The notes under the pieces were generated by a model. The model made no database searches and had not been told where the DNA came from. It was given only the letters and a program-made list of their open reading frames with translations. Below are positions 16,835 to 42,438 of a stretch of DNA of 64,000 nucleotides, piece by piece. The position numbers and the translations under genes were made by a program. Location: NCBI RefSeq assembly GCF_009789675.1, contig NZ_CP046914.1, positions 1,612,001 to 1,676,000 on the forward strand, read 5' to 3'. This stretch comes from Paraburkholderia acidisoli (GTDB lineage Bacteria > Pseudomonadota > Gammaproteobacteria > Burkholderiales > Burkholderiaceae). Numbering within the stretch: position 1 is the stretch's first letter; every line of letters begins with the position of its first letter.

Positions 16835-16901
16835 GAACTGACTCCTGCAATGGAATGAGGGACCCGGCCCAAAGCGAAAAGGCCGGCGTCGCGGTGCGGC
16901 T

Positions 16902-18188
16902 TCACGCGGTGCGCTCGCCGTCGCGCCATGTCACGGCCACGAGGAACGCGCCGGCGCCGGCCGCGACCAGAAACAGCATGGCGGGGACGAACGAACCCGC
17001 GTAATGCGCAACCAGAAGTCCCATCACGGCCGGCGAGATGGACGCCGCCAGTTGGCCGCCGAAATTCACGACGCCCGAAGCGGAGCCGATCATCCCGTCG
17101 GGCAGGCGCTTGAGCGGGATCGCGAACACGGTGCCGTAGACGAAGGTGTAGCTCATCATGCAGAGCGTCCAGCAGGTCAGCAGCGTCCAGAGTTGCGAAC
17201 AGGTGACCATGAGCGCCATGAACACCATCATCGAAAACGCACCGCCCGCGAGGAAGCGCCGCTCGTGTTTTTGCCCATGGCGGTCGAGCAACCAGCCAAC
17301 GACATTCAGACAAACGAAGCTGCAGAGATAGGGCAGGGAGGACGCGAGGCCCGCCGCCATGAGGTTGACGTGTTTCGTCTTCACCAGATACGTGGGCATC
17401 CACGACATCAACCCGACCATCACGAGATTGCTGAAGAAAAAGATCAGCGCCGTTCGCCGCATGATGGGCGTGCGCAGGAGCGCCTTGACGCCCGGCCGCG
17501 TTTGCCGGGTGCCCGCGGCCTGCACGGGCGGCTTTTTGACGACGAGCCAGAGCACGATCGCCATCGCGACGCCGACCGCGCCCAGCACGTGATAGGCGAA
17601 GCGCCAGCCGTGCGAGTGGATCATCGTGGCGATCCATCCGGAACCCACGGCGCTGCCGAGAAAGGCCGCACCGATGACGAGGCTCTTCGGTTTCGCGCGT
17701 TCGCTCTTGCGGTACGCCTCCGCAATGGTGACCGTGCTGGCGGGTGCGAAACCGCCTTCGCCAATGCCGAAGAGCGCACGTATCGCGATCAGGGAGCCGA
17801 GCGACCAGGCCATGCCGGTCAGCGCCGTGAACACCGACCACGACGCGACGCAGAACACCAGGACGCGTCGCGAGCCGATGCGGTCGGAGAGCCAGCCGGC
17901 CAGCAGATTCATGACCGCGTACGTGACGTAAAACGCACTCAGCACGAGGCCGGTCTCACGGGAGTCCAGGGAGAATTCCTGGGTCATCGGGACGATGGAA
18001 ATACTCATCGCGATGCGGTCGGCATTGGCCAAAACCCACGCAGCCAAAAGGACGATCAGCAGGATGATCTTGCGCGGTTTCGAGTAATGCGTGACCGGTT
18101 CGCTTTCCTGCGCCAGCGGCGATTCGTGTTTTTCCAGGCGGCTGGCCGTCATGCTCGGGCTGGCTTGCGTATCGAGTGAGTTGTTCAT
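16902..18188 (-). CDS. MFS transporter of racemase/M81 operon
   Basis: The 428 residues start at ATG 18188, which overlaps the racemase stop by four bases (ATGA). After a 45-residue hydrophilic N-terminus there are about twelve helices, with ANADRIAMSISIVPMTQEF and ALFGIGEGGFAPASTVTIAEAY, characteristic of the ACS branch (glucarate/hexuronate/phthalate-type carriers). Translational coupling to the racemase and the 67-bp gap to the M81 gene indicate one operon. It is the likely inner-membrane importer of the operon's substrate. Confidence 0.88.
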   Translation of the reverse strand: MNNSLDTQASPSMTASRLEKHESPLAQESEPVTHYSKPRKIILLIVLLAAWVLANADRIAMSISIVPMTQEFSLDSRETGLVLSAFYVTYAVMNLLAGWLSDRIGSRRVLVFCVASWSVFTALTGMAWSLGSLIAIRALFGIGEGGFAPASTVTIAEAYRKSERAKPKSLVIGAAFLGSAVGSGWIATMIHSHGWRFAYHVLGAVGVAMAIVLWLVVKKPPVQAAGTRQTRPGVKALLRTPIMRRTALIFFFSNLVMVGLMSWMPTYLVKTKHVNLMAAGLASSLPYLCSFVCLNVVGWLLDRHGQKHERRFLAGGAFSMMVFMALMVTCSQLWTLLTCWTLCMMSYTFVYGTVFAIPLKRLPDGMIGSASGVVNFGGQLAASISPAVMGLLVAHYAGSFVPAMLFLVAAGAGAFLVAVTWRDGERTA

Positions 18189-18970
18189 GGCGTTTCGGGC
18201 GATAGCGTTGACGGATGGCTGAATGCCTGCTCGGCGAGGCGCGCGGCGAGAACGTCGGCGGCATCGACCACGGCGCCCGCGGCGTACTGGCCCGGATGGA
18301 TGACGAGGCCGAGTTCCGTGCATCCCAGCACGACACAATCGGCTTCCCGCAAGGCGCAGGCGACGGCGGCTTCGAGCGTCCGGGTCGCGGCCGGCAACGC
18401 GCCGGCCTTGATCTGGAAGATCGCCTCGTGGACCTGCTGCATTTCACGGGGCGACCGTTCGATCACGCCGAGTCCCGCTTCGACCAGCGCACGGCGATAC
18501 AGGCCGCTCTCCTGCGTGGCGGTGGTCGCGAGCACGGCGGCGGTTTTCGCGCCCGTTCGCCGCACGGTGGCCGCCGCTTCGCGTGCGATATGCACGAGCG
18601 TCATGTCGGGGAACAGGCGCTCCATGTCTTCGTGCCAGAGGTGCGCGGTGTTGCAGGCAATGCCGCACAGCCGCGCGCCCGCCGCCCGGGCCGTGCCGAG
18701 CGCCGCCACGAGTGCCGGCACCGGCGAGTCGCCCATGCCCTGGAAGGCGGCCGTGCGATCGGGGACGCAATACTGGATGAGGACATGCGGCGGATAACTC
18801 TGGTCCGTGACGGGAACGCCGCGCCGGGCCATTTCCTCGCGGCAGGCGGTCAGGAACCGCGACGTCATGTCGACGCCCGCTTCGGGTCCCATGCCCCCGA
18901 TGATAGCCACCGCGCTCGTGGGCGCGGGACGTGGCGCGCGCTGGGCGGCAACCGTGGTCTGATTGAACAT
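18185..18970 (-). CDS. Aspartate/glutamate racemase family protein
   Basis: The protein has 261 residues with ATG 18970 as start; the open frame extends upstream into the promoter and LysR region, so longer starts are unlikely. The two catalytic cysteines are visible: Cys106 in GIACNTAH and Cys217 in VLGCTEL, with the N-terminal VAIIGGMGPEAG motif typical of the YgeA/aspartate racemase branch. It could racemise an acidic amino acid or act on a related hydroxy or amino acid. It is first in the leftward operon and divergent from the LysR gene. Confidence 0.87.
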   Translation of the reverse strand: MFNQTTVAAQRAPRPAPTSAVAIIGGMGPEAGVDMTSRFLTACREEMARRGVPVTDQSYPPHVLIQYCVPDRTAAFQGMGDSPVPALVAALGTARAAGARLCGIACNTAHLWHEDMERLFPDMTLVHIAREAAATVRRTGAKTAAVLATTATQESGLYRRALVEAGLGVIERSPREMQQVHEAIFQIKAGALPAATRTLEAAVACALREADCVVLGCTELGLVIHPGQYAAGAVVDAADVLAARLAEQAFSHPSTLSPETP

Positions 18971-18983
18971 GCTATTTCCATCA

Positions 18984-18995
18984 CAAATCGATTTG
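18984..18995. promoter_or_regulatory. Perfect palindrome CAAATCGATTTG in LysR/racemase divergent promoter
   Basis: The 12-bp palindrome lies just upstream of the racemase start (18970) and 67 bp from the LysR start (19062). LysR-type regulators usually bind dyads in such divergent regions. It is the best operator candidate here. Confidence 0.5.
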
Positions 18996-19061
18996 CGCAT
19001 GGTACGGTTGCCAAAAATCCCCTCATAATGACCATTTTCAATGTCAGGATGAGTTTTTCGC

Positions 19062-19958
19062 ATGAAGCGATCGATCGGCAGAAGCATTCCTTCCAGCGAT
19101 TCCCTCATCATCTTCGACGCCTGCGTGCGCTTCATGAACTTCACTCAGGCGGGCAATTCCGTGGGGCTGACGCAAAGCGCCGTGAGCCGGCAGGTACTCG
19201 ACCTCGAGCAATTCCTGAACGTCGCGCTTTTCGAGCGATCCGGCCGCCATCTGACGTTGACGGCGTCGGGCAAGGAGTATTGGGAGAAGATCGCGCCGCT
19301 GCTGGACGAACTGGAGGCGGCCACGGTGCGTACGCAGATGCGTCACACGCTGCGTAACACCTTGAATTTGTCGGTGGCCGGCAGTTTCTGTAATCGGTGG
19401 CTCATTCCCAATCTGCCGAACTTCGTCAAGGAGCATCCCGGCATTCTCGTGAACGTCACGTCTCGCGTGGGTCACATCGATCTTTCGCGCACGCAGTTCG
19501 ACGCGGCCATCATCAATTCCCCCACACGACCGCCGGGCACGCAGATGACGAAACTCTTCCCGCTCTCGCTCGCGGCGTTTTGCGCGCCGTCGCTATTGAA
19601 CGAGCGCGCGACGCTTTCCGCGAAGGACATTGCCGCCTTGCCGCTGCTGCATCTGAAAGAAATGCCGGAGGCATGGAGCGAGTATCTGGCGGCGCTGGGG
19701 TTACAGAACGTCAAGGTCGAAGCCGCCAGTTATTACTCGCTGCTGCTGTTGAGTTGCGAGGCCGCGCTGGCCGGCCTGGGTGTCGCGCTGCTGCCGCCGG
19801 AATTCGTGACCGAAGACGTGAGGACGGGGCGGCTGGTGCGCTTATCGCCCATGACGATTCCCACGAAATTTTCTTATTGGTTTACGTGGCAGGCGACCGA
19901 AGAGCGCTCGGACGCGTTGATCGCGTTCCGGCATTGGCTCGAAGCGCGTTGTCAGTGA
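19062..19958 (+). CDS. LysR-family transcriptional regulator (GcvA-like)
   Basis: The 298 residues show the LysR helix-turn-helix at about 15-75 (FMNFTQAGNSVGLTQSAVSRQVLDLE ... LFERSGRHLTLTASG) and the type 2 periplasmic-binding-like effector domain after about residue 95 with an SVAGSFCNRWLIPNLPNF beginning, as in the GcvA subgroup. It is divergent from the racemase operon and most likely activates it in response to the pathway substrate. Confidence 0.9.
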   Translation: MKRSIGRSIPSSDSLIIFDACVRFMNFTQAGNSVGLTQSAVSRQVLDLEQFLNVALFERSGRHLTLTASGKEYWEKIAPLLDELEAATVRTQMRHTLRNTLNLSVAGSFCNRWLIPNLPNFVKEHPGILVNVTSRVGHIDLSRTQFDAAIINSPTRPPGTQMTKLFPLSLAAFCAPSLLNERATLSAKDIAALPLLHLKEMPEAWSEYLAALGLQNVKVEAASYYSLLLLSCEAALAGLGVALLPPEFVTEDVRTGRLVRLSPMTIPTKFSYWFTWQATEERSDALIAFRHWLEARCQ

Positions 19959-20686: not shown

Positions 20687-20715
20687 TTGCGATGACTTTT
20701 TTCGCGGAAAATTAT
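20687..20715 (+). promoter_or_regulatory. Predicted promoter of the TorT-like ABC/HyuAB operon
   Basis: TTGCGA (20687-20692) and AATTAT (20710-20715) are 17 bp apart. The -10 box abuts the palindromic site at 20712-20727, so a bound repressor would block transcription start. Confidence 0.45.
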
Positions 20716-20727
20716 GATGCATCAAAT
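20712..20727. promoter_or_regulatory. GntR-type operator, copy 1
   Basis: TTATGATGCATCAAAT contains the perfect palindrome TGATGCATCA (20715-20724). The identical 16 bases recur at 30285-30300, directly downstream of the GntR/FCD gene at 29549. The sharing of 16 bases between two promoters of one cluster supports a common regulator. Confidence 0.7.
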
Positions 20728-20760
20728 ACGTAACATCATCCCAACAGCAGAGGACTCGTT

Positions 20761-21813
20761 ATGCGGTCGACCTGGTGCAGGAAGCTTTGGGCAATACTCA
20801 GTCTCTCCTCGGTGGCGGCGCTCGCGCAGGCGCAAAGCACATGGCCGCCGTTCAACGTGGAAAGCGTGCAGGGCGGCAAGGCCACTGCCACGCAGATCAC
20901 GCCGCTCACGAAAGCGAGCCGCAAATGGAAGCTTTGCGTGCTCATCCCGCATCTGAAAGACAGCTACTGGAGCGCCGTGGATTACGGCGTGATCAGCGAG
21001 GCGCGCCGCATTGGCGTTTCGGCGACCATCCTCCAGGCGGGCGGCTACGACAAGTTGCCGGTGCAGGTCTCGCAGTTCGACGACTGCCTCGCCTCGGGCG
21101 CTGACGCCATTGTCGTCGCCCCCATTTCCGAAGCCGGCCTGACCGCGAAGTTCAAGCAGAGCCAGGCGAAGGGCATTCCCACGGTGGTCTTCATCAATCC
21201 GGTCGACAGCGCGCCGGTCACGTCGAAAATCTTCGTCGATTTCCAGACCAAGGGCGCGCTCACGGGCACCTATCTCAAGAACGCGCTGGGCGCGGCGGGC
21301 GGTCAGGTCGTGGCGTTTCCCGGTCCGCAGGGTTCCGGCTGGGCGGAGAGCTATCTGAAGGGCTTCCAGTCGTCGATGAACGGCGGCAAGGTCAAGGTCC
21401 TCGACGTGAAATTCGGCGAAGCGGGCGTGCCGGAACAACTGCATCTGGTCGAAGACGCGTTGCAGACGTATTCGGGCGTCAACGCGGTCTGGGGCGCGGC
21501 GCCCGCTGCCGAAGCCGCGGTCGGCGCGGTGTCGGAGGCCGGCTTGAACAAGGTGACGATCGTCTCGTCGTACGAGAACCAGGCCATGCTCGATCTCTTG
21601 CGCAGCGGCAAGATCGCGGCGTTCGCCACCGAATTTCCGACCATGCAGGCGCGCGCCGCCGTCGATCTCGCGGTGCGCGCGCTCGAAAAGCAGCCGGTCG
21701 CGCCGCAATACCGTGTCGTGCCGAAGATGGTGACGCGCGAAAGCGTTGCGCAGATCGACACCACGCAGATTCTCGCGCCCGCGAACTGGCGGCCCGTGTT
21801 CGAGCAGAAGTAA
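20761..21813 (+). CDS. Sugar-type ABC transporter periplasmic binding protein (TorT-like)
   Basis: The 350 residues begin with a signal peptide cut at about Ala24/Gln25 (SSVAALAQAQ). The mature part matches the periplasmic-binding-protein type 4 family (ribose/galactose-binding, TorT subgroup): KLCVLIPHLKDSYWSAVDYGVISEA, DCLASGADAIVVAPISEAGL, GQVVAFPGPQGSGWAESYLKGF, AVWGAAPAAEAAVGAV. It is first in an operon with an ATPase and two permeases, and it delivers the substrate to them. The ligand is probably the compound processed by HyuAB, not necessarily a sugar. Confidence 0.9.
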   Translation: MRSTWCRKLWAILSLSSVAALAQAQSTWPPFNVESVQGGKATATQITPLTKASRKWKLCVLIPHLKDSYWSAVDYGVISEARRIGVSATILQAGGYDKLPVQVSQFDDCLASGADAIVVAPISEAGLTAKFKQSQAKGIPTVVFINPVDSAPVTSKIFVDFQTKGALTGTYLKNALGAAGGQVVAFPGPQGSGWAESYLKGFQSSMNGGKVKVLDVKFGEAGVPEQLHLVEDALQTYSGVNAVWGAAPAAEAAVGAVSEAGLNKVTIVSSYENQAMLDLLRSGKIAAFATEFPTMQARAAVDLAVRALEKQPVAPQYRVVPKMVTRESVAQIDTTQILAPANWRPVFEQK

Positions 21814-21833
21814 GCGTCGCGACGAAGGTGGCG

Positions 21834-21858
21834 GTGAGCGCCGTGCGCGGCGCTTCAC
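21834..21858 (+). repeat. Intercistronic hairpin after binding-protein gene
   Basis: GTGAGCGCCG, a TGCG loop, and CGGCGCT-T-CAC form a GC-rich stem with a single bulge between the binding-protein stop and the ATPase start. Such stems commonly stabilise the upstream mRNA segment and lower expression of the downstream transporter genes. No U-tract follows, so it is not a full terminator. Confidence 0.5.
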
Positions 21859-21909
21859 GGCAACACCCCATTCGGCGGCGATCCGTAACGGAACCCGGAC
21901 GGACTCATC

Positions 21910-23520
21910 ATGGCGGAAACTTTGTTGCGGCTGACCGGCGTAAGCAAGCGCTTTCCTGGCGTGCGTGCGCTGAGCAGCGTCGATTTCGATCTGCGCGCCG
22001 GCGAGGTTCACGTGCTGTTCGGCGAGAACGGCGCGGGCAAGTCCACGCTCATCAACGTGATCACGGGCATTCTCGTGCCGGAGGAAGGGCGCATCGAGAT
22101 CGATGGTCAGGTCCATGCCGATCTCACGCCGCACGCGGCGCGCGAAGCGGGCGTTTCGGCGGTGTTCCAGGAGTTCAGTCTGGTCGCGAGCCTCGACGTG
22201 CTCGACAACCTGTTTCTCGGCCGCGAGCTGACGCGCTTCGGCCGCGTCGACCGCAAGCGGATGGCCGCGCTCGCCACGCAATGCATGCGCGAACTGGGCT
22301 TCGAACTCGACCTGCACGCGCTCGTCGGCACGCTGTCGCGCGCAGAGCAGCAGATGACCGAGATCACCAAGGCGGTGCTGCAAAAGAGCCGCATCCTGAT
22401 TCTCGACGAACCCACGGCGTCGCTCACCGACGCCGAAGCCGACCGTCTGCTCGCGCTCGTGAAGTCGCTGCGCGCGCGGGGCGTCGGCATCATCTACGTC
22501 TCGCACCGGATGCGCGAGATTCGCGCGCTGGCCGATCGCGTGACCGTGCTGCGGTCCGGCTCGCGCGTGGGCGTGGTCGAAGCCGCTGCCGTTTCGGAAG
22601 CGCGTCTCGTCGAAATGATGACGGGCCGCAGCGTGGACGCGTGGCCCGCCATTTCGCACCGGCCCGGCGCGGTGCGGTTGCGCGTCGACCGGCTGGCGAG
22701 CCGCGACGGCAAGCTCGCGGAGATGTCGCTGGTCGCGCACGCGGGCGAGATCGTCGGCATCGCGGGGCTGGTCGGGTGCGGCAAGGAAGCGCTCGGGCGT
22801 TGCCTGTTCGGGCTGGCACCGATCGCGCGCGGCGAAGTGCAACTCGACGGCCGTGCCGTGCAGCCGCGCAGCCCGCGCCAGATGCTGCGCGAAAAGCTCT
22901 GTTATTTTCCCGCCGATCGCGGCGCGGAAGGTCTCGCGCTCGAACGCAGCGTGCGCGAGAACGGCAGCATGGCCGCGCTCGATCTCGCGGCGTTCAACCG
23001 GCGCGGCGTGATGCGGCCGCGCGACGAACAGCGGCGCACGCTCGCGGCGATGGAGCGGCTGGGCCTGCGTCCGCTCGACACCGAAGTGGCTGTGCGCACA
23101 CTCTCCGGCGGCAACCGGCAGAAGGTGATGCTGGCGCGCGGCCTGCTGCGCGACGTGGACGTGTACGTATTCGACGAACCGACGGTCGGCATTGACGTGG
23201 GCGCGAAGGCCGAGGTGTATCGCCTCATCGCGCAACTGGTCGAGCGGGGCGCGTGCATCGTGCTGATCTCGTCCGATCTCGCCGAAGTCGTGCATCTCAG
23301 CCATCGCATTTACGTGCTGCACGAAGGGCGGCCCGTTGCCGAACTCGACGCCGAGCATCGCACCGAAGCCAACGTGCTGGAAGCCTTCTTCGGCAAGCGC
23401 GCCGCGCCCGCGCCACGCGTGACGGGCCATGACACCGGCGCCGAAGTCGACGCTCAAGCCGCTGCGCAAACGCCGCGCAATTCGTTCACCGACACCTTCA
23501 CCTCGAGGCAGGCTTCATGA
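21910..23520 (+). CDS. Sugar-type ABC transporter ATP-binding protein, duplicated (RbsA-like)
   Basis: The 536 residues consist of two ABC domains. The first has Walker A GENGAGKST (38-46), a divergent signature LSRAEQQMTEI and Walker B ILILDEPTASL. The second has a degenerate Walker A (LVGCGKEAL), the intact signature LSGGNRQKVMLARGL and DVYVFDEPTVGID. This arrangement is normal for ribose/xylose-type importers. Its stop overlaps the start of the first permease (ATGA at 23517). It powers import through the two membrane subunits that follow. Confidence 0.92.
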   Translation: MAETLLRLTGVSKRFPGVRALSSVDFDLRAGEVHVLFGENGAGKSTLINVITGILVPEEGRIEIDGQVHADLTPHAAREAGVSAVFQEFSLVASLDVLDNLFLGRELTRFGRVDRKRMAALATQCMRELGFELDLHALVGTLSRAEQQMTEITKAVLQKSRILILDEPTASLTDAEADRLLALVKSLRARGVGIIYVSHRMREIRALADRVTVLRSGSRVGVVEAAAVSEARLVEMMTGRSVDAWPAISHRPGAVRLRVDRLASRDGKLAEMSLVAHAGEIVGIAGLVGCGKEALGRCLFGLAPIARGEVQLDGRAVQPRSPRQMLREKLCYFPADRGAEGLALERSVRENGSMAALDLAAFNRRGVMRPRDEQRRTLAAMERLGLRPLDTEVAVRTLSGGNRQKVMLARGLLRDVDVYVFDEPTVGIDVGAKAEVYRLIAQLVERGACIVLISSDLAEVVHLSHRIYVLHEGRPVAELDAEHRTEANVLEAFFGKRAAPAPRVTGHDTGAEVDAQAAAQTPRNSFTDTFTSRQAS

Positions 23521-24521
23521 ACGTGCACAAACTGTCGTTGCCCGCGCGTGCCGGCGCGCCGCGATTCGCGTGGCGCAACCTCGTCGTGCCGGCGCTGATC
23601 GTCGTGCTGTGCGTGGCGATGGCCGTGTGGGAGCCGCGCTTTTTCAGCCGCTTCAATCTCGTGAATCTTGCGCGTAACTTCGCGATGCTCGCGCTCGTCT
23701 CGGTCGGGCAGATGCTCGTGATGGTGGTGGGCGGCATCGACCTTTCGCTCGGCGCCGTGGTCGCGCTGGCTTCGGTGGCGAGCGCGCTGACGATGACGGG
23801 CGTGCCCGCCCTCTGGCCCGACGCGAGCCCGCTCGCGCTCGTCGTGATCGGCACGCTCGCCGCGCTGCTCGCGGGCGCCGCGGTGGGCGCCGCCAACGGC
23901 GCGATCGTCGCGTGGCTCAAGGTGCCGCCGTTCATTTCCACTATCGGCGTGATGTCGATGGTGGGCGGCGCGGCGCTCTACATCTCGAACGGCGTACCGA
24001 TCTACGGCGTGCCCGATCTGCTCACCGACGCCGTCGGCCGTGCCTTGCTGTTCGGCGTGCCCGTGATCGTGTGGATCTGCCTCGCGGTGGTGCTCGCGAT
24101 CGGCTACGTGATGACGCAGCGGCCGCTCGGGCGTCATCTTTATGCAGTCGGCGGCCGTCCGGAAGCCGCGCGCGCGTCCGGCATTCCCATGACGCGGCTG
24201 TTGCTGCTCGCCTACACGACGGCGGGCGTGCTGGCGGCGCTCTACGGCGTGCTGGTCACGGCACGCATCGGCTCGGGGCAAGCGACGCTCGGCAACACCA
24301 CGGCGATCGAATCCATCGCGGCGGCCGTGGTGGGCGGTGTGTCGCTGCAAGGCGGCAGCGGGCGCGTGGGCCGCGTGGTGGCGGCGGCGCTGTTTCTGGC
24401 CGTGGTGTCGAACGCGCTGAACATGGCGCGCATCGACAGCAAATGGCAAACGCTCGCGCTCGGCGTGGTGGTGATCGTCGCCATGTTGATCGACGTGAAG
24501 ACTTCCGGGAAAGCGAAATGA
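23517..24521 (+). CDS. ABC transporter permease (RbsC-like), first copy
   Basis: The 334 residues form 8-10 hydrophobic helices and carry family motifs of ribose-type permeases: MLVMVVGGIDLSLGAVVAL, PPFISTIGVMSMVGG, GRHLYAVGGRPEAARASGI and IESIAAAVVGGVSLQGGSGRV. The start overlaps the ATPase stop and its stop overlaps the next permease start (ATGA at 24518). It likely pairs with the following permease as a heterodimer. Confidence 0.9.
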   Translation: MNVHKLSLPARAGAPRFAWRNLVVPALIVVLCVAMAVWEPRFFSRFNLVNLARNFAMLALVSVGQMLVMVVGGIDLSLGAVVALASVASALTMTGVPALWPDASPLALVVIGTLAALLAGAAVGAANGAIVAWLKVPPFISTIGVMSMVGGAALYISNGVPIYGVPDLLTDAVGRALLFGVPVIVWICLAVVLAIGYVMTQRPLGRHLYAVGGRPEAARASGIPMTRLLLLAYTTAGVLAALYGVLVTARIGSGQATLGNTTAIESIAAAVVGGVSLQGGSGRVGRVVAAALFLAVVSNALNMARIDSKWQTLALGVVVIVAMLIDVKTSGKAK

Positions 24522-25555
24522 CGACCTCGACGACTCCTCCGGCACGCTCCGCCGCTCGCGTGCGTCTCTATGCGCCCGCGCGCCGCGAACGTCTCACGCT
24601 CGCCGCGGCGACCGTGGCGCTGCTGCTCGTGCTCGGCGCGCTGCAACCGAACGTGCTGAGCCTCGGCAATCTCGAGAACATCCTCGTTCAGGCTTCCTAC
24701 ATGATGGTGTTCGCGACCGCGCAGGCCATCGTGATTCTCACGCGCGGGCTCGATCTCTCGCTGGGCGTGACGGTGTCGCTCGCGAGCGTGTGCGCCGCAC
24801 TGGCAATGACCCATTTCGCCGATCACGCCGTTGCCGCGCCCGCGCTGGGCGTGGCGGCGGGTTTGGGCGCGGCGCTGGCGGTCGGTCTGTTCAACGGCGT
24901 ATGCATTGCGTGGACGCGTATCAGTCCGTTCGTCGTCACGCTCGGCACCATGAACATCGTGCTCACGCTCAGCTCGACGGTGAGCGGCGGCTTTCCTGTG
25001 GCGCCGTTGCCCGCGGGTTTCGCCGCGCTCGCCACGGCGCAGGTGGCAGGCGTGCCGGTGCAATTGCCGATCGTGGCGGTCACGCTCGGCGCGCTGGCCT
25101 GGCTCATGAGCCGTACCGTGTTCGGGCGCTCGCTCACGCTGATCGGCGCGAATCCGGCGGCGGCGCGCGTGGCGGGCGTGCGCGTCAAGCTCACGTTGCT
25201 GCTCGGCTATCTGCTGTGCGGCGCGCTGGTCGCGATCGGCGCGTTGCTGCTCACGGCGCGCACGGGTTCCGGCGAGCCGAACCTGGGCGGCAATCTCGCG
25301 CTGCAGTCGATCGCCGCGGCCGTGCTCGGCGGCATTCGTCTGCAAGGCGGCGAGGGCGACGTGCTCGCGCCGGTGCTGGGTGCGCTGTTCGTCACGATAC
25401 TCGGCAACGGCATGGACCTGCTGCATCTGAACGGCTTTCTTCAACAGATTCTGCTGGGCGCGATCATCGTTGCGGCGCTCGGTCTCGACCGGTTTCGCGC
25501 GCATGCCCGCCTCGGAGCCTTCCTTCAACGTTTCATTCGGCGCACGCAATCATGA
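24518..25555 (+). CDS. ABC transporter permease (RbsC-like), second copy
   Basis: The 345 residues have the same layout as the preceding permease: IVILTRGLDLSLGVTVSLAS, TRISPFVVTLGTMNIV, GRSLTLIGANPAAARVAGV and LQSIAAAVLGGIRLQGGEG. The N-terminus has about 25 extra basic residues before the first helix. Translationally coupled on both sides (starts in the previous stop; stop overlaps the HyuA start at 25552). Two different permeases suggest an asymmetric channel. Confidence 0.9.
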   Translation: MTTSTTPPARSAARVRLYAPARRERLTLAAATVALLLVLGALQPNVLSLGNLENILVQASYMMVFATAQAIVILTRGLDLSLGVTVSLASVCAALAMTHFADHAVAAPALGVAAGLGAALAVGLFNGVCIAWTRISPFVVTLGTMNIVLTLSSTVSGGFPVAPLPAGFAALATAQVAGVPVQLPIVAVTLGALAWLMSRTVFGRSLTLIGANPAAARVAGVRVKLTLLLGYLLCGALVAIGALLLTARTGSGEPNLGGNLALQSIAAAVLGGIRLQGGEGDVLAPVLGALFVTILGNGMDLLHLNGFLQQILLGAIIVAALGLDRFRAHARLGAFLQRFIRRTQS

Positions 25556-27639
25556 CCTATCAGGTTTGCATCGACATCGGCGGCACGTTCACGGATTGCC
25601 TCGTCTCGGACAGCACGGGTGAGATCAACATCTTCAAGTCCCCGACCACGCCCGGCGAGTTCCACAAGGGCTTCATCAACGTGCTGCATGTCGCGGCCGA
25701 AGGCTACGGTCTCGCGCCGCGCGACTTCATCGCACAGATCAAGCTGATCGTGCACGGCTCGACGGTGTCGACCAACGCGCTCGTGGAGCGCAAGGTGGCG
25801 ACGGCCGGTTTGATCCTCAACGAAGGCCACGCCGACATCCTCACGCTGCGCGAAGGACCGCGCAAAGGCGCGTTCGAATGGCGGCTCGATTATCCCGAAC
25901 CGTATATTCCGCGGCGTCTCACGCGCACCGTGCGCGGCCGTATCGACGCGCGCGGGCGCGAACTCGAAGCACTCGACGAGGACGGCATTCGCGCCGCCGC
26001 CGGCTACCTGCGTCAGGCGGGCGCGCAGGCCGTGGCGGTGGGGCTGCTGTGGTCGGTGGTGAATCCGGCGCACGAGCGGCGCGCGCGCGAATTGATCCAC
26101 GAAGTCTGGCCCGACGTGCCCGTGACGCTGAGCCACGAGGTGAGTTCCGTGCCGCGCGAATACCGCCGCGTGGTGGCGGCGGCGATCGATGCCTCGATCA
26201 ATCCGATCATCCGCAAATATGTGGGCGAACTGCAAACGGCGCTGGGCGCGAGCGGTTTTGTCGGCGAACTGCTGCTCGCCAACTGCGTGGGCGGCATGAT
26301 GCCCGCGCAGGAAATCATCCGCCGGCCGATCTATAGCGTGATGTCGGGGCCGACGCTCGCGCCCATGGCCGCACAGGCGCTCACGGAGGAAGCGGACGTG
26401 ATCGTGGGCGACATGGGCGGCACGACCTTCGACGTTTCCGCGATCCGCAACCGCCAGATCATCATTGCGCCCGACGCGATGATTCACGACGACGCGCTCG
26501 GCATTCCCAAGGTGGACGTGCGCTCGGTGGGCGCGGGCGGCGGCTCGATCGCGCAGGTCGACGCGGGCGGCCTGCTGGTGGTCGGTCCGCACAGCGCGGG
26601 CGCGTGGCCCGGGCCGGCCTGCTACGGCAACGGCTCGACGGCGCCCACGGTGACGGACGCCAACGTGGTGCTCGGCATCATCGACCCGGACTACTTTCTG
26701 GGCGGCAAGATCAAGCTCGACCGCGCGCTCGCCGAAGCCGCCATCGCGCCGCTCGCGGAGCGGCTCGGGATCAGCGTGCTCGACGCCGCGTACGCGATCC
26801 ACACCACCAGCAACCACAACATGGTGGCCGCGATCGAGGACATCACGATTCGCGAGGGCATCAATCCGCGCGAGAGCTTTTTCGTGTCGGGCGGCGGCGC
26901 GACGGCGTGCCATATCGCCGAAATGGTCGACATTCTCGGGCTGGAGCGCTACATGATTCCGCGCTTCGTGGCGGGGCTCTCGGCGTTCGGCGGCCTGATC
27001 TCGGACATTCGCTGGGAAGAAAGCGCGACCCTGCTCACGCAAAGCCGCGAGTTCGACCGCGAGGGCGTGGAGCGTCTGCTCGCGCAGTTGCGCGAACAGG
27101 GCAAGCGCTTTCTGGACGCGGCGCACGTCGCGCCCGAAGACCAGCTGTTCGAATACGTGGCGATGGGCCGCTACGAATATCAGGCGTGGGAAATCCCGGT
27201 GCAGTTCGAACTGCGCGACGGCCGCCTTGCCGATCGCGCCGCCGACGATCTGGCGCAGGCGTTTCACCGCATGCACGAGCGCATCTATTCGATCAGCAAC
27301 GAAAGCGAACTGGTGGAGTTCACCAACTGGCGCGTGCAGGCCATCGGCCGCCGCCCGAGCCAGCAGGTCTGGCGCAAGTTCGCGCTGGGCGAGGCGAGCG
27401 GCGCGCCGGTTGCCGCGCGGCATCGTCCGCTCTACGTGCATCGGCTGGGCGGCCTGACCGAGGTGCCCGTGTACGACGCGGCCACGCTGGGCGCGAACGC
27501 CACGCTGCAGGGACCGTGCGTGGTGGAAGCGACAACCTTCAGCGCGGTGCTGCTGCCCGACCACACCGGCACGATGGACCGCTACGGCAACCTGACCGTG
27601 CAGGTGGCGCGCGAAGCCGCGCTGGCGAAGGCCGCCTGA
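25552..27639 (+). CDS. hyuA: Hydantoinase/oxoprolinase subunit A (HyuA)
   Basis: The 695 residues match the HyuA/ATP-binding subunit of N-methylhydantoinase, 5-oxoprolinase and acetophenone-carboxylase-type enzymes. The N-terminal actin-like phosphate loop is CIDIGGTFTDCLV (about 6-17), and a second ATP motif DMGGTTFDVS lies near residue 286. Together with HyuB it couples ATP hydrolysis to opening a lactam or hydantoin ring or carboxylating a ketone. The start overlaps the permease stop, which ties the enzyme tightly to the importer. It acts in the cytosol. The substrate is unknown. Confidence 0.92.
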   Translation: MTYQVCIDIGGTFTDCLVSDSTGEINIFKSPTTPGEFHKGFINVLHVAAEGYGLAPRDFIAQIKLIVHGSTVSTNALVERKVATAGLILNEGHADILTLREGPRKGAFEWRLDYPEPYIPRRLTRTVRGRIDARGRELEALDEDGIRAAAGYLRQAGAQAVAVGLLWSVVNPAHERRARELIHEVWPDVPVTLSHEVSSVPREYRRVVAAAIDASINPIIRKYVGELQTALGASGFVGELLLANCVGGMMPAQEIIRRPIYSVMSGPTLAPMAAQALTEEADVIVGDMGGTTFDVSAIRNRQIIIAPDAMIHDDALGIPKVDVRSVGAGGGSIAQVDAGGLLVVGPHSAGAWPGPACYGNGSTAPTVTDANVVLGIIDPDYFLGGKIKLDRALAEAAIAPLAERLGISVLDAAYAIHTTSNHNMVAAIEDITIREGINPRESFFVSGGGATACHIAEMVDILGLERYMIPRFVAGLSAFGGLISDIRWEESATLLTQSREFDREGVERLLAQLREQGKRFLDAAHVAPEDQLFEYVAMGRYEYQAWEIPVQFELRDGRLADRAADDLAQAFHRMHERIYSISNESELVEFTNWRVQAIGRRPSQQVWRKFALGEASGAPVAARHRPLYVHRLGGLTEVPVYDAATLGANATLQGPCVVEATTFSAVLLPDHTGTMDRYGNLTVQVAREAALAKAA

Positions 27640-27692
27640 CGATAGCCGCAGAACCCGATAACGCAGAGAGAACCCCGGACAGGAGCTGCAAC

Positions 27693-29519
27693 GTGAAACG
27701 TGACCCCATCGGCACCGACGCCCCGAACGGCAATCGTATCGACCCGTTCATGATGTCGGTGCTCAAAAGCCGCTTCGAGGCCATCGTGCGCGAGATGACG
27801 CTCGTGGTGATGAAGGCGAGCCGCTCGGCCGTGATCAAGAACGCGAAGGATCTGTCGTGCGCGATCCTCACGTTCGACAACCGGCTGGTTTCGACCGAAG
27901 ACGCGCTGCCGATCCACGTGATGTCGATGGACATGGCGACGCGTCCGATCGGCGAGCATTTCGACGATATCCGGCCCGGCGACGGCTTTCTCAACAACTC
28001 GCCCTATACGGGCGGCACGCACCACGCCGACATGATCATGGCGATGCCGGTGTTCTTCGAAGGCGTGCCGCTGTTCTGGGTGGTCGCGCTCTCGCATCAC
28101 GCCGACACCGGCGCGCCGACGCCGTCGACGTATTTGCCGTTCGCGAAGAACGTGTACGAGGAAGGGCTGCATTTTCCCTGCGTGCGCGTGATGGAGAACT
28201 ACAAGGAAAAGCGCGACATCCTGCGCATGGGAATGACGCGCAATCGCGTGCCGGAGATCTGGGAAGGCGATCTGCGCGCGCAGATGGGCGCGTGCATGAC
28301 GGGCGAGCGGCGTATCCACGAATTGCTGGAGAAGTACGGTACGCAAACGGTGATGAACTTCGTCGAAGACTGGTTCGATTACGGCGAGCGCCGCATCGTC
28401 GCGGAAATCGGCAAGCTGCCGGCGGGGCGCTTCGAGTACGAGATTCGCCACGACCCGGTGCCGGGCGTTGCCGACGAAGGCATTCCCGTGCGGCTCGCGA
28501 TCGAGGTCGATCCGGAAAACGGCTACGTGACGGTGGACGTGCGCGACAACATCGACTGCGTGCCGGGCGGCCTCAATCTCTCCGAAAACACCACGACGGG
28601 ATCGTGCCGTATCGGCGTATTCAATAATCTCGACGCTTCGTTACCGCACAACCACGGTAGCGCGAGCCGCATTCGCGTGCTGCTGCGCGAAGGCGCGGTG
28701 GTCGGCAAGCCGCGTTATCCGGCCGGCACCTCGGTCGCGACCACCAACGTCAACGACCGGCTCATCACCGCGGGCAATGCCGTGTTTTCGCGCATGGGCG
28801 AACCGTACGGGCAGGCGGAGGGCGGCCCGCATCTTCCGGTCGGCATGGCGGTGATTTCGGGCGGCGATCCGTACAAGCACGGCCGCGCTTACGTGAACCA
28901 GCTCTTCATCGGCTATGCGGGCGGCGGCGCGCTGCACGGCCACGACGGCTGGCTCACCTACTGCGGCGCGGCCAACGGTGGTCTCATCACGCTCGATTCG
29001 GTCGAAGTCGACGAGTCGATGTACCCGATCGTGATCGCCTCGCGCGAGATACGCGCCGACACGCAAGGCGTGGGCGAGTTCGAAGGCGCGCCGGGCGTGG
29101 GCGGCGTGTTTTATCCGCTCGATCACGACATGACCGTGGTGTATGCCGCCGATGCCTCGCAGTTTCCGCCGCGCGGCGTGAACGGCGGCCGCGACGCGCA
29201 GCCGACCACCAGCCGCAAGCAGCTTGCCGACGGCAGCGTGAGCGACCTGCCGGGCTTCAACGAAGAGGTCTGCGGCCCCGACGAGAAAATGCTGTTTTTC
29301 GCCTGCGGCGGTGGCGGTTACGGCGACCCGCTGCGGCGCGATCCGGCGCGCGTGCTGCGCAGTCTCAATCGCGGCTGGCTCGGCGCGGAGCGCGCGCGCG
29401 AGGCTTACGGCGTGGTCGCGGCCTACGACGAAACGCGGCTCGAATATCGGCTCGACGAACAGGCGACAGCCGATCTGCGAAAATCGCGGTTTGCGGCCCG
29501 AACGGACGCCGGCATGTAA
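27693..29519 (+). CDS. hyuB: Hydantoinase/oxoprolinase subunit B (HyuB)
   Basis: The 608 residues start at GTG 27693 with AGGAG seven bases upstream. Family blocks are clear: an N-terminal helix FEAIVREMTLVVMKASRS, DNRLVSTEDALPIHV, NSPYTGGTHHADMIM (conserved metal/substrate region), and GGGGYGDPLRRDPARVL near the C-terminus. HyuB carries the hydrolytic site and partners HyuA. It lies 53 bp after hyuA and 29 bp before the GntR gene, all in one direction. Confidence 0.92.
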   Translation: MKRDPIGTDAPNGNRIDPFMMSVLKSRFEAIVREMTLVVMKASRSAVIKNAKDLSCAILTFDNRLVSTEDALPIHVMSMDMATRPIGEHFDDIRPGDGFLNNSPYTGGTHHADMIMAMPVFFEGVPLFWVVALSHHADTGAPTPSTYLPFAKNVYEEGLHFPCVRVMENYKEKRDILRMGMTRNRVPEIWEGDLRAQMGACMTGERRIHELLEKYGTQTVMNFVEDWFDYGERRIVAEIGKLPAGRFEYEIRHDPVPGVADEGIPVRLAIEVDPENGYVTVDVRDNIDCVPGGLNLSENTTTGSCRIGVFNNLDASLPHNHGSASRIRVLLREGAVVGKPRYPAGTSVATTNVNDRLITAGNAVFSRMGEPYGQAEGGPHLPVGMAVISGGDPYKHGRAYVNQLFIGYAGGGALHGHDGWLTYCGAANGGLITLDSVEVDESMYPIVIASREIRADTQGVGEFEGAPGVGGVFYPLDHDMTVVYAADASQFPPRGVNGGRDAQPTTSRKQLADGSVSDLPGFNEEVCGPDEKMLFFACGGGGYGDPLRRDPARVLRSLNRGWLGAERAREAYGVVAAYDETRLEYRLDEQATADLRKSRFAARTDAGM

Positions 29520-29548
29520 GCGTCCGCACCCTTTTTCATCATCGACGT

Positions 29549-30235
29549 ATGAGCCAATACGACCTGAAAACCGTCGAGTTCGACAATCTTGGAACGACCA
29601 TTTATCAAACGCTGTGCGAAGGTTTGATCAAGGGAAATTTCAAGCCCGGCGACCGGCTGAAGATTCGCGACATCGCGACCGAACTCGGCACGAGCGTGAC
29701 GCCCGTGCGCGACGCGGTGCTGCGTCTCGTGCAGGACGAAGCGTTGGTGATGAAATCGGCGCGCGACATTCGCGTGCAGCACCTCACGAAAGCGGCGTAC
29801 CTGGAAATTCGCTCGATTCGCGTGCGGCTCGAAGGACTGGCGGCGGAAACGGCGGCGCACGTGGCCACGCCCGCCGACATCGCGCGGCTCGAGGCGCTGC
29901 TCGTCGAGAACGAAGCGGCGATGCGCGCCGGCGACACGCTGCGCGCGACCGAGCTGAATCAGGTGTTCCACTTCCTGCTGGCCGATATCGCGGGCATGCC
30001 GGTGCTGCAAGGCATCCTGCGACGGCTGTGGCTGCGCATGGGACCGATGATCGCCGACGTGTACGCGGGCGCGGGCCGCTCGATGATCGATCACCACTAT
30101 CCGATCGTCGCTTCGATCCGCGAGCATGACGGCACCTCGGCTGCGCGCGCGCTGCAACAGGACATCGTGGAAGGCGGCGGCGCCATTCTCGAACGTCTCA
30201 CCGAACTGGAAATGTCCATCGACTCGGCAGCCTGA
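29549..30235 (+). CDS. GntR/FCD-family regulator of the HyuAB cluster
   Basis: The 228 residues have a GntR winged helix at about 15-80 (TLCEGLIKGNFKPGDRLKI, then ELGTSVTPVRDAVLRL) and an FCD all-helical effector domain at about 88-215 with the metal-type residues RVRLEGLAAETAA, NQVFHFLLADIAG and DHHYPIVASI. It stands between hyuB and the kinase gene. Identical palindromes (TGATGCATCA core) precede the importer operon and the kinase gene, so it is probably the local repressor released by a pathway metabolite. Confidence 0.9.
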   Translation: MSQYDLKTVEFDNLGTTIYQTLCEGLIKGNFKPGDRLKIRDIATELGTSVTPVRDAVLRLVQDEALVMKSARDIRVQHLTKAAYLEIRSIRVRLEGLAAETAAHVATPADIARLEALLVENEAAMRAGDTLRATELNQVFHFLLADIAGMPVLQGILRRLWLRMGPMIADVYAGAGRSMIDHHYPIVASIREHDGTSAARALQQDIVEGGGAILERLTELEMSIDSAA

Positions 30236-30284
30236 CGGCAGCGCGACCGCGCTGTGCCGTCCGACGGCCTCCTGGTGAAAAAAT

Positions 30285-30300
30285 TTATGATGCATCAAAT
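30285..30300. promoter_or_regulatory. GntR-type operator, copy 2, over the kinase start codon
   Basis: TTATGATGCATCAAAT repeats the site at 20712-20727 exactly; the palindrome core is at 30288-30297. It covers the likely ATG at 30287/30290 of the kinase gene and lies 49 bp after the GntR stop. Confidence 0.7.
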
Positions 30301-31366
30301 ATTTCATGCATCCGCGGATGTCGTCAACGACGCGGCCGACGTGCTGAGCACGCATCCGCCGGCCTTGTCCGCCGACGAAGCGCAACGGTTCGCGTGGGAG
30401 TGGTACGGGCTGCGCGTGCGGGTGAGCGCGCTCAACGGCGAGCGCGATCTGAATTTTCTCGCCGTGGGCGAGGACGGCCGCAAGTACGTGCTGAAATTCG
30501 TCAACGCCGCCGAACCGCGCGACGTGACAAATTTCCAGACCGAAGTCCTGCTGCATCTGGGGCGCCGCGATCCGTCGCTGCCGGTGCCGCGCGTGGTGGC
30601 CGCGCGCGACGGGCGGTGCGAGCCGGAACTCGAGTGCGGCGGCCAGCGTATCGTCATGCGTCTCGTGAGTTATCTCGAAGGCGTGCCGCTGCACAACGTG
30701 ACGCCCGGCATCGCGCTGATGAGCGACATGGGCACCGTGCTCGCGCGGCTCGATCGCGCGCTCGCCGACTTTTCGCATCCAGCCGCCGCGCGCGACCTGC
30801 TCTGGAATATCTCGCACGTGCCGCGTCTCGCTTCGCGGCTCGACTATGTCGTGGATCCCCGGCGCCGCGCCTCGGTACAGCGGTTCTTCGATCACTTCGG
30901 CGCTCGCGTCGCGCCGCGTCTCACGGCGTTACGGCATCAGGTGATTCACAACGACATGAATCCGCAGAACGTGATGGTCGATGCGCGGCGCCACGACCGG
31001 CTCGGCGGCATCATCGACTTCGGCGATGCGCTCGTCGCGCCGATGATCAACGACCTCGCCACGGCGCTGGCGTATCACGTTTCGGTAGGGCAGCCGCCGT
31101 TCGAAGGCATGCAGGCGTGCGCGCTCGCCTATCACCGCGTCGTGCCGCTGGAAGCGGCGGAAATCGAACTGCTGCCCGAACTCGTGCGCGCGCGTCTCGC
31201 GCTCATCATCGCGATCTCGCACTGGCGCGCTGCCAGTTACCCCGGCAATGCCGCGTATATCCTGCGCAACAATGCGCGCGCCTGGGAGGGCTTCGAACGC
31301 ATGGACGCGCTCACGCCCGCCGCCGCCGCGAGCCTGTTTCGCCCGACGTTGATGGAGAATTCATGA
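30287..31366 (+). CDS. APH/choline-kinase-family small-molecule kinase
   Basis: The protein has 359 residues from ATG 30287 (GGTGA eight bases upstream; ATG 30290 is equally possible). It shows the aminoglycoside phosphotransferase/homoserine-kinase-II fold: nucleotide loop GERDLNFLAVGEDGRKYVLKF, catalytic His221-x-Asp223 ... Asn228 in VIHNDMNPQNVMVD, and metal-binding Asp244 in IIDFGDAL. Its stop overlaps the start of a class III PLP enzyme (ATGA at 31363). In animals, hydroxylysine kinase of this family works with an aminotransferase-fold phospho-lyase, so a kinase that phosphorylates an amino alcohol is the favoured reading. Antibiotic phosphorylation is unlikely from context. Confidence 0.82.
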   Translation: MMHQIFHASADVVNDAADVLSTHPPALSADEAQRFAWEWYGLRVRVSALNGERDLNFLAVGEDGRKYVLKFVNAAEPRDVTNFQTEVLLHLGRRDPSLPVPRVVAARDGRCEPELECGGQRIVMRLVSYLEGVPLHNVTPGIALMSDMGTVLARLDRALADFSHPAAARDLLWNISHVPRLASRLDYVVDPRRRASVQRFFDHFGARVAPRLTALRHQVIHNDMNPQNVMVDARRHDRLGGIIDFGDALVAPMINDLATALAYHVSVGQPPFEGMQACALAYHRVVPLEAAEIELLPELVRARLALIIAISHWRAASYPGNAAYILRNNARAWEGFERMDALTPAAAASLFRPTLMENS

Positions 31367-32673
31367 CCGCCGCCGCTGCCTCGCTCACGCCCGATGTCGC
31401 CCTGTCCGATGCCGATCGAGCGCTGCTCGAACGCCGGCGCCGCCTGCTCGGGCCGAGTTACCGGTTGTTCTACGAGGAGCCCGTCCATCTCGTGCGTGGC
31501 GAGGGTGTCTGGCTCTACGATGCCGATGGACGGCGCTATCTCGACGCCTACAACAACGTGGCCTCGGTCGGGCACTGCCATCCCGTGGTGGTGGACGCGA
31601 TCGCGCGCCAGTCGGCCACGCTCAACACGCATACGCGTTATCTGCACGAAGGCATACTCGATTTCGCCGAAGACCTGCTCGGCGAATTTCCCGGCGAACT
31701 CGGCAACGTCGTGCTCACGTGCACCGGCAGCGAAGCCAACGATCTCGCGCTGCGCGTGGCGCGAGCGCACACGCAAGGCACGGGCGTGATCGTGACCTCG
31801 TATGCGTATCACGGCGTGACCGCGGCGCTGGCGGAGCTTTCGCCTTCACTCGGGCCCGCGATCCAGCCCGGGCCGCACGTGCGCTATGTCGCGGCGCCGG
31901 ATCCGTATCGAGACCCGAACGCCGCAACCCGTTTCGCCGACGACGTGCAGCACGCGCTCGACGACCTGCGTGCGCACGGCATTCGGCCCGCGGCCATGCT
32001 GGTCGATTCGATTCTTTCGAGCGATGGCATCGTCGCTTCGCCGCCCGGCTTTCTCGCCGCCGCCGCGCAGCGCGTGCGCGCGGCGGGCGCGCTCTTCATC
32101 GCCGACGAAGTACAACCGGGGTTCGGCCGAACCGGCGCAACGATGTGGGGTTTCGAGCGCCACGGCTTCGTGCCCGACCTGGTCACGCTCGGCAAGCCGA
32201 TGGGCAACGGTCATCCCGTGGCGGCGGTGGTGGCGCGGCCCGAAGTGATGCTCGCGTTCGGCACGCAAATGCGCTACTTCAACACGTTCGGCGGCAATCC
32301 GGTTTCGTGTGCGGCGGCCGCGGCCGTGCTGAACGTGATTCGCGACGAGCGGTTGCGCGACAACGCGGCCAGTACGGGCGCGTTGCTCGGCGACGCCTTG
32401 CGTGACCTGGCGAAGCGCTACGAAGGCATGGGCGACGTGCGCGGCGCGGGTTTGTTCGTCGGCGTGGAACTCGTGACCGATCGCGCCACGCGCGCACCGG
32501 ACGCCGGGCTGGCGAGCCGCGTTGTCAACGGCATGCGACGCCGGGGCGTGTTGATCAGCGCCTCGGGCCCGCACGCCAACGTGTTGAAGATCCGGCCGCC
32601 GCTGGTTTTTCGCTCCGAGCACGTGAGCATGCTGGTCGCGACGCTGGACGAGGTGTTGCGGGAAACGGCTTGA
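31363..32673 (+). CDS. Class III PLP enzyme: aminotransferase or amino-alcohol phosphate phospho-lyase
   Basis: The 436 residues match class III aminotransferases. Lys278 in TLGKPMGNGHP is the Schiff-base lysine, Asp248 in FIADEVQPGFGRTG binds the PLP pyridine nitrogen, and TGSEAND (121-127) binds the PLP phosphate. The N-terminus (YEEPVHLVRGEGVWLYDADGRRYLDAYNNVASVGHCHP) resembles the AGXT2L1/AGXT2L2 branch, whose members eliminate phosphate and ammonia from phosphoethanolamine or 5-phosphohydroxylysine. Coupling to a kinase gene strengthens the lyase reading. A normal transaminase remains possible. Confidence 0.85.
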   Translation: MTAAAASLTPDVALSDADRALLERRRRLLGPSYRLFYEEPVHLVRGEGVWLYDADGRRYLDAYNNVASVGHCHPVVVDAIARQSATLNTHTRYLHEGILDFAEDLLGEFPGELGNVVLTCTGSEANDLALRVARAHTQGTGVIVTSYAYHGVTAALAELSPSLGPAIQPGPHVRYVAAPDPYRDPNAATRFADDVQHALDDLRAHGIRPAAMLVDSILSSDGIVASPPGFLAAAAQRVRAAGALFIADEVQPGFGRTGATMWGFERHGFVPDLVTLGKPMGNGHPVAAVVARPEVMLAFGTQMRYFNTFGGNPVSCAAAAAVLNVIRDERLRDNAASTGALLGDALRDLAKRYEGMGDVRGAGLFVGVELVTDRATRAPDAGLASRVVNGMRRRGVLISASGPHANVLKIRPPLVFRSEHVSMLVATLDEVLRETA

Positions 32674-37355: not shown

Positions 37356-37419
37356 TCGCACCGCCATGCAGATCGAGCGCACCATGCTTCCAGCCGGTTC
37401 TATGCACGAAGGAAACGAG

Positions 37420-38898: not shown

Positions 38899-38929
38899 GC
38901 CCGGGATTCAGGCATCAGGAGACATCACA

Positions 38930-39952: not shown

Positions 39953-40011
39953 TTCGTGCCGCCGGCACCTGGCTGGGGCCGGTTTGAGGCGACTCATTCA
40001 AGCAAGGAGCA
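38930..40011 (+). other. Placeholder region note: permease gene and following 63-bp gap
   Basis: The permease gene occupies 38930-39952 (listed separately). The short gap to the aldehyde dehydrogenase GTG at 40016 contains a GC-rich imperfect stem (GCCGGCACC ... GGGGCCGGT, about 39961-39982) and the AAGGAG ribosome site; no promoter is evident, consistent with one transcript. Confidence 0.35.
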
Positions 40012-40015
40012 GCGT

Positions 40016-42303: not shown

Positions 42304-42344
42304 ACGCGGCTGCAAACGCGGCAGTAAGCGCGACTAAATCACGA

Positions 42345-42366
42345 GGCGCGGCTTTCGGGCCGCGCC
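42345..42366 (+). repeat. Intercistronic hairpin between SDR and DUF993 genes
   Basis: GGCGCGGC, loop TTTCGG, GCCGCGCC form a perfect 8-bp GC-rich stem in the 135-bp gap. It is not followed by a U-run, so read-through with mRNA stabilisation or partial termination is more likely than full termination. Just upstream are degenerate repeats of ACGCGGC. Confidence 0.45.
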
Positions 42367-42438
42367 CGGCAAGCTTGAATAGCGGTGTATCGCAATCTCC
42401 CAGGCGGTTCCCGTCCGACAAGAAAAGGATTCCTAACT

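Follow-up and report, generated by a model that had tools for sequence, protein, structure and literature searches.

A stretch of 64,000 nucleotides from Paraburkholderia acidisoli (contig NZ_CP046914.1; G000:C2:1612001-1676000), referred to here as the window, carries a cluster of nine genes that may serve to break down cyclic amides. The genome comprises 7.9 Mb in five contigs. All nine genes lie on the + strand and span 20761-32673 of the window; they encode an ATP-binding cassette (ABC) importer, both subunits of a HyuAB-type hydrolase, a GntR/FCD regulator, an APH-fold kinase and a class III pyridoxal phosphate (PLP) enzyme, which is the gene set named in the initial annotation.

The first gene is preceded by a putative operator, the 17-mer TTATGATGCATCAAATA (copy 1, 20712-20728), whose palindrome TGATGCATCA (20715-20724) starts 46 bases upstream of the importer start. 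The importer consists of a periplasmic substrate-binding protein (20761-21813; TorT-like, with a sugar-binder fold), an ATPase of the ribose/arabinose type (21910-23520) and two PF02653 permeases (23517-24521 and 24518-25555). Next come hyuA (25552-27639), hyuB (27693-29519, with a GTG start) and the regulator gene, gntR (29549-30235). An identical 17-mer (copy 2, 30285-30301) precedes the kinase gene (30341-31366), which is followed by that of the PLP enzyme (31363-32673). ATGA overlaps are found at 23517, 24518, 25552 and 31363. The genes were initially described as fused by such overlaps; this is correct where the importer joins hyuA and the kinase gene joins the PLP gene, but gaps of 96 and 53 bases separate the binding-protein gene from the ATPase gene and hyuA from hyuB. 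The cluster was also called operator-bounded; the 17-mer does occur twice, but the second copy lies just upstream of the kinase gene and not at the far end.

Where the kinase starts is uncertain. The frame is open from 30254, and GTG 30341 appears to fit better than ATG 30287. The ATG falls inside operator copy 2; the GTG lies 53 bases past the first base of the palindrome. The kinase annotated in each of two Azospirillum plasmids begins 47 bases past the first base of the same palindrome. The GTG is favoured because of this spacing and because residues 1-17 of the kinase structure model have a predicted local distance difference test (pLDDT) score below 50.

The predicted ring-opening enzyme and its importer

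HyuA and HyuB carry Hydantoinase_A and Hydantoinase_B domains above the Pfam cut-offs, and the closest solved chains of both are those of caprolactamase (415 bits for HyuA against 6yra_A, CapA; 234 bits for HyuB). HyuA, the predicted ATP-binding subunit, keeps CapA Asp11 and Asp295 (hand count on the alignment); HyuB, the metal-site subunit, keeps CapB Asp41, His99, Asp102 and His124, as do the HyuB proteins of four comparison loci (L088, L066, L196 and L197; fetched loci are numbered with the prefix L). In the caprolactamase study, mutants indicate that all of these residues are required for activity (PMC8453981). With the ATP-site and metal residues of the family in place, the sequences support the assignment of HyuAB to the ATP-dependent lactamases/hydantoinases with the catalytic residues of caprolactamase. 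Unlike caprolactamase, HyuA and HyuB score 538 and 264 bits against NCBIfam cut-offs of 1000 bits per subunit, and A-N stands in place of the vicinal Cys410-Cys411 pair found in the caprolactam pocket (G-N in L088, L196 and L197; A-C in L066).

The caprolactam pathway of Pseudomonas jessenii consists of caprolactamase CapAB, an omega-aminotransferase and 6-oxohexanoate dehydrogenase (PMC6061476, PMC8453981). As there, a HyuAB-type ATP-dependent lactamase is predicted to act first in the window, and a class III PLP enzyme is predicted to remove the amine and leave a semialdehyde. A CsiR-type regulator gene is part of the P. jessenii cluster, and the window has a GntR/FCD gene; CsiR is a regulator of the GntR kind. 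An omega-aminotransferase is not what the window's cluster offers for the amine-removing step; its sole PLP enzyme appears to belong to the phospho-lyase branch of class III and is accompanied by a kinase. On this analogy the window appears to hold the known caprolactam scheme with the transaminase swapped for a kinase and a phospho-lyase, a change that would be sensible for an opened product with a hydroxyl next to its amine.

HyuAB could instead act on hydantoin, N-methylhydantoin or another cyclic ureide, or could be a carboxylase, in which case the compound would not be a simple lactam. The family includes N-methylhydantoinase as well as acetone/acetophenone carboxylases, and M20-type genes occur near some kinase-PLP pairs elsewhere, identified by Pfam in L059 and L092 and annotated as Zn-dependent hydrolase in L224 and L226. 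There is no M20-type gene in the window cluster, however, and caprolactamase is both the best solved and the best NCBIfam match, though below the cut-offs; we consider this alternative quite unlikely.

A role for the importer genes in trimethylamine N-oxide sensing was set aside, although the binding protein exceeds one TorT cut-off (it is below the other).

The kinase and the PLP enzyme

The kinase has an APH domain (PF01636) with the conserved Asp, Asn and D-F-G motif; D223, N228 and D-F-G-D 244-247 (numbered from 30287) are invariant among 40 sequences. These residues have familiar roles in kinases of this fold. Its best NCBIfam match is the N-terminal part of the fused kinase/aminotransferase NF004799 (PRK06148; 278 bits), with homoserine kinase also among the best. 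The only PDB sequence match is the aminopropanol kinase 6ef6 (E 2.4e-5), but the two share 19% identity in the structural alignment; 6ef6 belongs to a microcompartment-associated pathway. Source annotations call several relatives hydroxylysine kinase and others serine or homoserine kinase. Together, these matches support membership of the amino-alcohol kinase family. In the fold comparison made with the structure model, homoserine kinase 2ppq comes first, followed by N-acetylhexosamine kinases and amicoumacin kinase, all above 6ef6; the modelled fold by itself is not decisive. A resistance enzyme is judged unlikely; the APH(2'')-Ig NCBIfam model gives 21.8 bits where 620 are required, and NF004799 and homoserine kinase are the best matches.

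The PLP enzyme matches two solved phospho-lyases best, 5g4i (393 bits) and the ethanolamine-phosphate phospho-lyase 6tor (363 bits); the next solved chain scores 204 bits, and aminotransferases reach that value or less. Its best NCBIfam match is the C-terminal part of NF004799 (528 bits). Unlike that fused protein, the window has two genes with a 4-base overlap, scoring 278 and 528 bits against a whole-protein cut-off of 1128. There are 41 alignment columns that are identical in 5g4i and 6tor and absent from six comparison enzymes (GABA (gamma-aminobutyrate) transaminase, a racemase and four paralogues from the same genome). The window enzyme keeps 26 of these; the comparison enzymes keep 0 by construction, and the median share kept among 93 other kinase-linked enzymes is 59%. 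In FastTree trees its nearest row is L065. The sequence comparisons support placement in the phospho-lyase branch rather than among the transaminases.

The class III fold, and the annotation of relatives as aspartate aminotransferase family proteins, would also suit an ordinary omega-aminotransferase beside a kinase that serves something else. This is very unlikely; the two solved phospho-lyases score nearly double any other solved chain, and 26 phospho-lyase columns are kept. In addition, kinase and PLP genes or domains are adjacent on one strand in 88 of 109 fetched loci (window excluded), all of which were retrieved through a kinase or PLP-enzyme match. The two are fused in one frame in 7 of 89 kinase-PLP pairs.

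A kinase followed by a class III PLP phospho-lyase, acting on a vicinal amino alcohol, is the arrangement of the hydroxylysine and ethanolamine-phosphate systems, and 5g4i and 6tor are the nearest solved enzymes here. The hydroxylysine kinase and its 5-phosphohydroxylysine phospho-lyase were reportedly described by Veiga-da-Cunha in 2012 (cited in PMC8154272), along with ethanolamine-phosphate phospho-lyase. Those pathways are not known to involve ring opening; the window pair differs in being tied to an importer and HyuAB through shared operators.

Shared operators and recurrence of the gene set

The palindrome TGATGCATCA has eight copies in the genome, two of them in this cluster; the reversed control has none. 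The remaining six copies lack the 17-mer flanks. The same site lies near related regulators in other genera. Among 20 fetched loci with a gntR more than 45% identical, 15 carry the palindrome, with one mismatch allowed, no more than 500 bases from gntR or the kinase gene, and it is absent on the same terms from L043, L059, L169, L170 and L172. Exact palindromes are located between gntR and the kinase gene in L066 and L084 and upstream of the kinase gene in L042. In two Azospirillum plasmids (L213 and L214), exact palindromes precede both gntR and the kinase gene, giving the order operator-gntR-operator-kinase-lyase; there is no HyuAB within 12 kb. These plasmids are 68-69% identical to the window in gntR, 52% in the kinase and 63-64% in the PLP enzyme. 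L211 has a gntR of 51% identity with an exact palindrome upstream, though it lacks the kinase-PLP pair. In an Escherichia coli plasmid (L215), TTTATGATGCATCAAATA is found upstream of a row of short-chain dehydrogenase/reductase (SDR), kinase and PLP genes. This plasmid region (NZ_CP107722.1 41453-62397) holds the pair together with a GABA transaminase, a succinate-semialdehyde dehydrogenase, an importer and the same operator.

By these comparisons the regulator and its site go with the kinase-lyase pair; the window has importer-hyuAB placed between the first operator and gntR. Since the Azospirillum order is operator-gntR-operator-kinase-lyase, the window looks as if importer-hyuAB had been inserted behind the first operator. 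The shared operator and regulator arrangement is the strongest sign that both halves have one function.

With the own genome included, the genus sample has kinase matches at E <=1e-30 in 16 of its 144 genomes, the family sample in 30 of 299 and the phylum sample in 36 of 398; the samples overlap. Operons of hyuA-hyuB-kinase-lyase occur at four other loci: L196, L197, L231 (Variovorax paradoxus VAI-C) and L233 (Burkholderia arboris), the last two from plasmid searches. The parts lie near one another in two further loci, L088 (a metagenome-assembled genome, with an aldehyde dehydrogenase) and L066/L183 (Aureimonas glaciei). About 16 kb of the latter hold gntR (48% identical to the window), the kinase (40%), the PLP enzyme (62%), an importer of the same type (44-55%) and HyuB-HyuA (27-33%). 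In loci without annotation, genes were called with a simple script based on codon usage. The lactam proposal was to be refuted if kinase and HyuAB genes did not co-occur in related genomes; the pair and HyuAB do recur together elsewhere. An SDR gene and an FrsA-like hydrolase gene are nearby in all of L088, L196, L197, L231 and L233, which suggests one common pathway at these loci.

The FrsA-like alpha/beta hydrolases (L196:6516-7652, L231:2840-5235 and L088:18657-19751) are 30-62% identical to the L196 copy, with the SDR alongside.

A second lactamase type also adjoins the pair. PxpA with PxpB and PxpC lies within 9 kb of it in 5 of 88 loci (L052, L054, L098, L186 and L199; Pfam families checked in L052), and the kinases of these five form one clade. 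The block is conserved among them (L052 and L054 being from Caballeronia): the kinase-PLP genes are accompanied by pxpA, pxpB, pxpC and a gene for a divergent Cpn60-like protein, with importer genes, named from reading, in between. In Aureimonas glaciei (L183:5704-17244), HyuA/HyuB genes, two pxpA copies, pxpB, pxpC and a biotin-carboxylase-type gene (named from reading) are found together. The two lactamase types may coexist in this region, because HyuA/HyuB and pxpA/pxpB/pxpC adjoin there.

A single clade of five HyuAB-linked kinases (window, L088, L066, L196 and L197) is rejected by the approximately unbiased test (p 0.000934) in a quick tree of 44 of 94 kinases, which has long branches (L088, L065 and L061) and excludes L231 and L233. 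No well-supported set in this tree includes the window. With only the HyuAB-linked and PxpABC-linked rows, one change is needed; unlabelled rows in between split the HyuAB-linked ones. The window kinase's nearest rows by FastTree are L213 and L214, then L222, L215 and L164; the last three loci have GABA transaminase and succinate-semialdehyde dehydrogenase genes close by.

A candidate route for hydroxylated cyclic amides

We lean somewhat towards reading the cluster as one co-regulated catabolic unit, in which a cyclic amide would be converted to an amino alcohol, then to a phosphate ester and finally to an aldehyde. The substrate would be a cyclic amide with a hydroxyl adjacent to the N-bound ring carbon, brought in by the sugar-type ABC importer. 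HyuAB would use ATP to open the ring; the product would be an acid carrying a vicinal amino alcohol, whose amine is probably terminal. The APH-fold kinase would then phosphorylate the hydroxyl, and the PLP enzyme would eliminate the phosphate; hydrolysis would yield an aldehyde (semialdehyde) and ammonia. An aldehyde dehydrogenase encoded elsewhere would oxidise the aldehyde. The GntR/FCD protein would act on the two identical operators, one for importer-hyuAB-gntR and one for kinase-lyase. We infer every enzyme activity, the substrate and repression from the gene content, families, catalytic residues, operator copies and recurrence given above. Among the matches listed in the open-access literature, titles and the beginnings of abstracts gave no description of HyuAB with a kinase-phospho-lyase pair.

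A number of observations weigh against this route. The cluster contains no aldehyde dehydrogenase, the binding protein resembles sugar binders, and the fold list of the kinase includes sugar and antibiotic kinases. In only 4 of the 88 pair-bearing loci (L066, L088, L196 and L197) was HyuA or HyuB found within 9 kb; the lactamase neighbour counts in these 88 loci rest on tblastn with few queries. HyuB in pair-bearing loci is 39-42% identical to that of the window (39% in each of L196 and L197), and 27% in L066. No operator-like site is found in L196, L197 or L233. Of about 311 plasmid records with a kinase match, 11 were opened and one (L233) has HyuAB within 9-12 kb; of 928 with a HyuB match, ten were opened and the pair is present in one (L231). 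Among 37 kinase-bearing genomes, HyuA is near the pair in 3 (0.22 expected) and PxpA in 3 (0.17 expected). These are nominal values from an estimate that counts the window itself and related operons repeatedly: it was the window that raised the question, one operon is common to G403 and G387, the 37 genomes make up only a portion of the kinase-matched ones, and PF01968 includes long 5-oxoprolinase-type proteins.

The nearest relatives of the window HyuAB and importer among the opened loci are L207-L211 (HyuA 64-68%, HyuB 68-74%). Around these five and L212 (HyuB 56%), no kinase-lyase pair occurs out to about 10 kb. Genes for a class IV aminotransferase and succinate-semialdehyde dehydrogenase are present at L207 and L209, those for an aldehyde dehydrogenase and a class III enzyme from a different family at L211, and that for another class III enzyme at L212. 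L210 has a succinate-semialdehyde dehydrogenase above its NCBIfam cut-off, and at L208 no aminotransferase, class III enzyme or (semi)aldehyde dehydrogenase gene of these kinds is seen. HyuAB of the window type may act on hydroxyl-free lactams, because L207 and L209 carry the class IV aminotransferase and L211 and L212 the other class III enzymes. With HyuAB of only 27-42% identity in the recurrences and the closest importer-HyuAB relatives without the pair, the link between HyuAB and the pair is facultative. The pathway proposed initially is partly supported, by the sequence evidence on its enzyme classes and by recurrence; it is weakened by these two findings.

They would fit two pathways under one regulator, importer-HyuAB yielding, from one cyclic amide, an ordinary amino acid that is transaminated elsewhere and kinase-lyase degrading a different amino alcohol such as hydroxylysine, aminopropanol or ethanolamine. 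Azospirillum, with gntR-kinase-lyase and no nearby HyuAB, agrees with such a division, as do the 84 of 88 pair loci in which neither HyuA nor HyuB was found within 9 kb. Identical 17-mer operators precede both halves in the window, however, and hyuA-hyuB-kinase-lyase forms a single operon in four other loci; on balance, separate pathways are unlikely.

Own genome aside, HyuB searches across 369 genomes from the class and 399 from the order, with up to three candidates scored per genome, gave only 39-43% matches; the window form of HyuB therefore seems rare in these groups and may have been acquired.

If the cluster is a single catabolic unit, a C4 substrate such as 4-hydroxy-2-pyrrolidone, the example given initially, would be converted to 4-amino-3-hydroxybutyrate and then succinate semialdehyde. 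This is a reasonable candidate because L164, L215 and L222 adjoin GABA transaminase and succinate-semialdehyde dehydrogenase genes, and it fits the presence of the latter beside relatives of either half of the cluster; as one of several, it is by itself improbable. Hydantoin, an oxazolidinone and hydroxylysine lactam are other candidates.

More broadly, the pair could be a general end module for hydroxylated cyclic amides, repeatedly joined to unrelated ring- or amide-opening enzymes (HyuAB, PxpABC, M20 hydrolases, amidases and perhaps hydroxyectoine opening). The PxpABC, M20 and amidase neighbours support this idea, as does a Chelatococcus plasmid with ectoine/hydroxyectoine genes beside the pair; we hold it tentatively, at rather less than an even chance. 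It would define an undescribed class of catabolic routes which finish in phosphate elimination and not transamination.

On the Chelatococcus plasmid (L224, NZ_CP012399.1 254266-273237), gntR and genes for a Zn-dependent hydrolase, the kinase and the PLP enzyme are found with annotated eutB, eutC, doeA and doeB within 4 kb. Opened hydroxyectoine would be a vicinal amino alcohol; the pair may for this reason serve hydroxyectoine breakdown there.

The route proposed for the window would, if correct, give a function to genes annotated merely as phosphotransferase, aminotransferase or hydantoinase, and would account for amino-alcohol kinases and phospho-lyases beside two lactamase types. It would provide a testable bacterial route for feeding on hydroxylated lactams and related cyclic amides, and could yield enzymes that open and deaminate stable lactam rings under mild conditions.

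Two other regions of the window lie on either side of the cluster. On the + strand, 36444-43605 encodes another ABC importer of the sugar type, an SDR (both named from reading), an aldehyde dehydrogenase and a DUF993 protein; there is no operator copy in this region. On the - strand, 15350-19958 encodes an Asp/Glu/hydantoin racemase family protein and an M81 metallopeptidase, together with a major facilitator superfamily transporter and a LysR gene (both named from reading); this is possibly another small catabolic unit.

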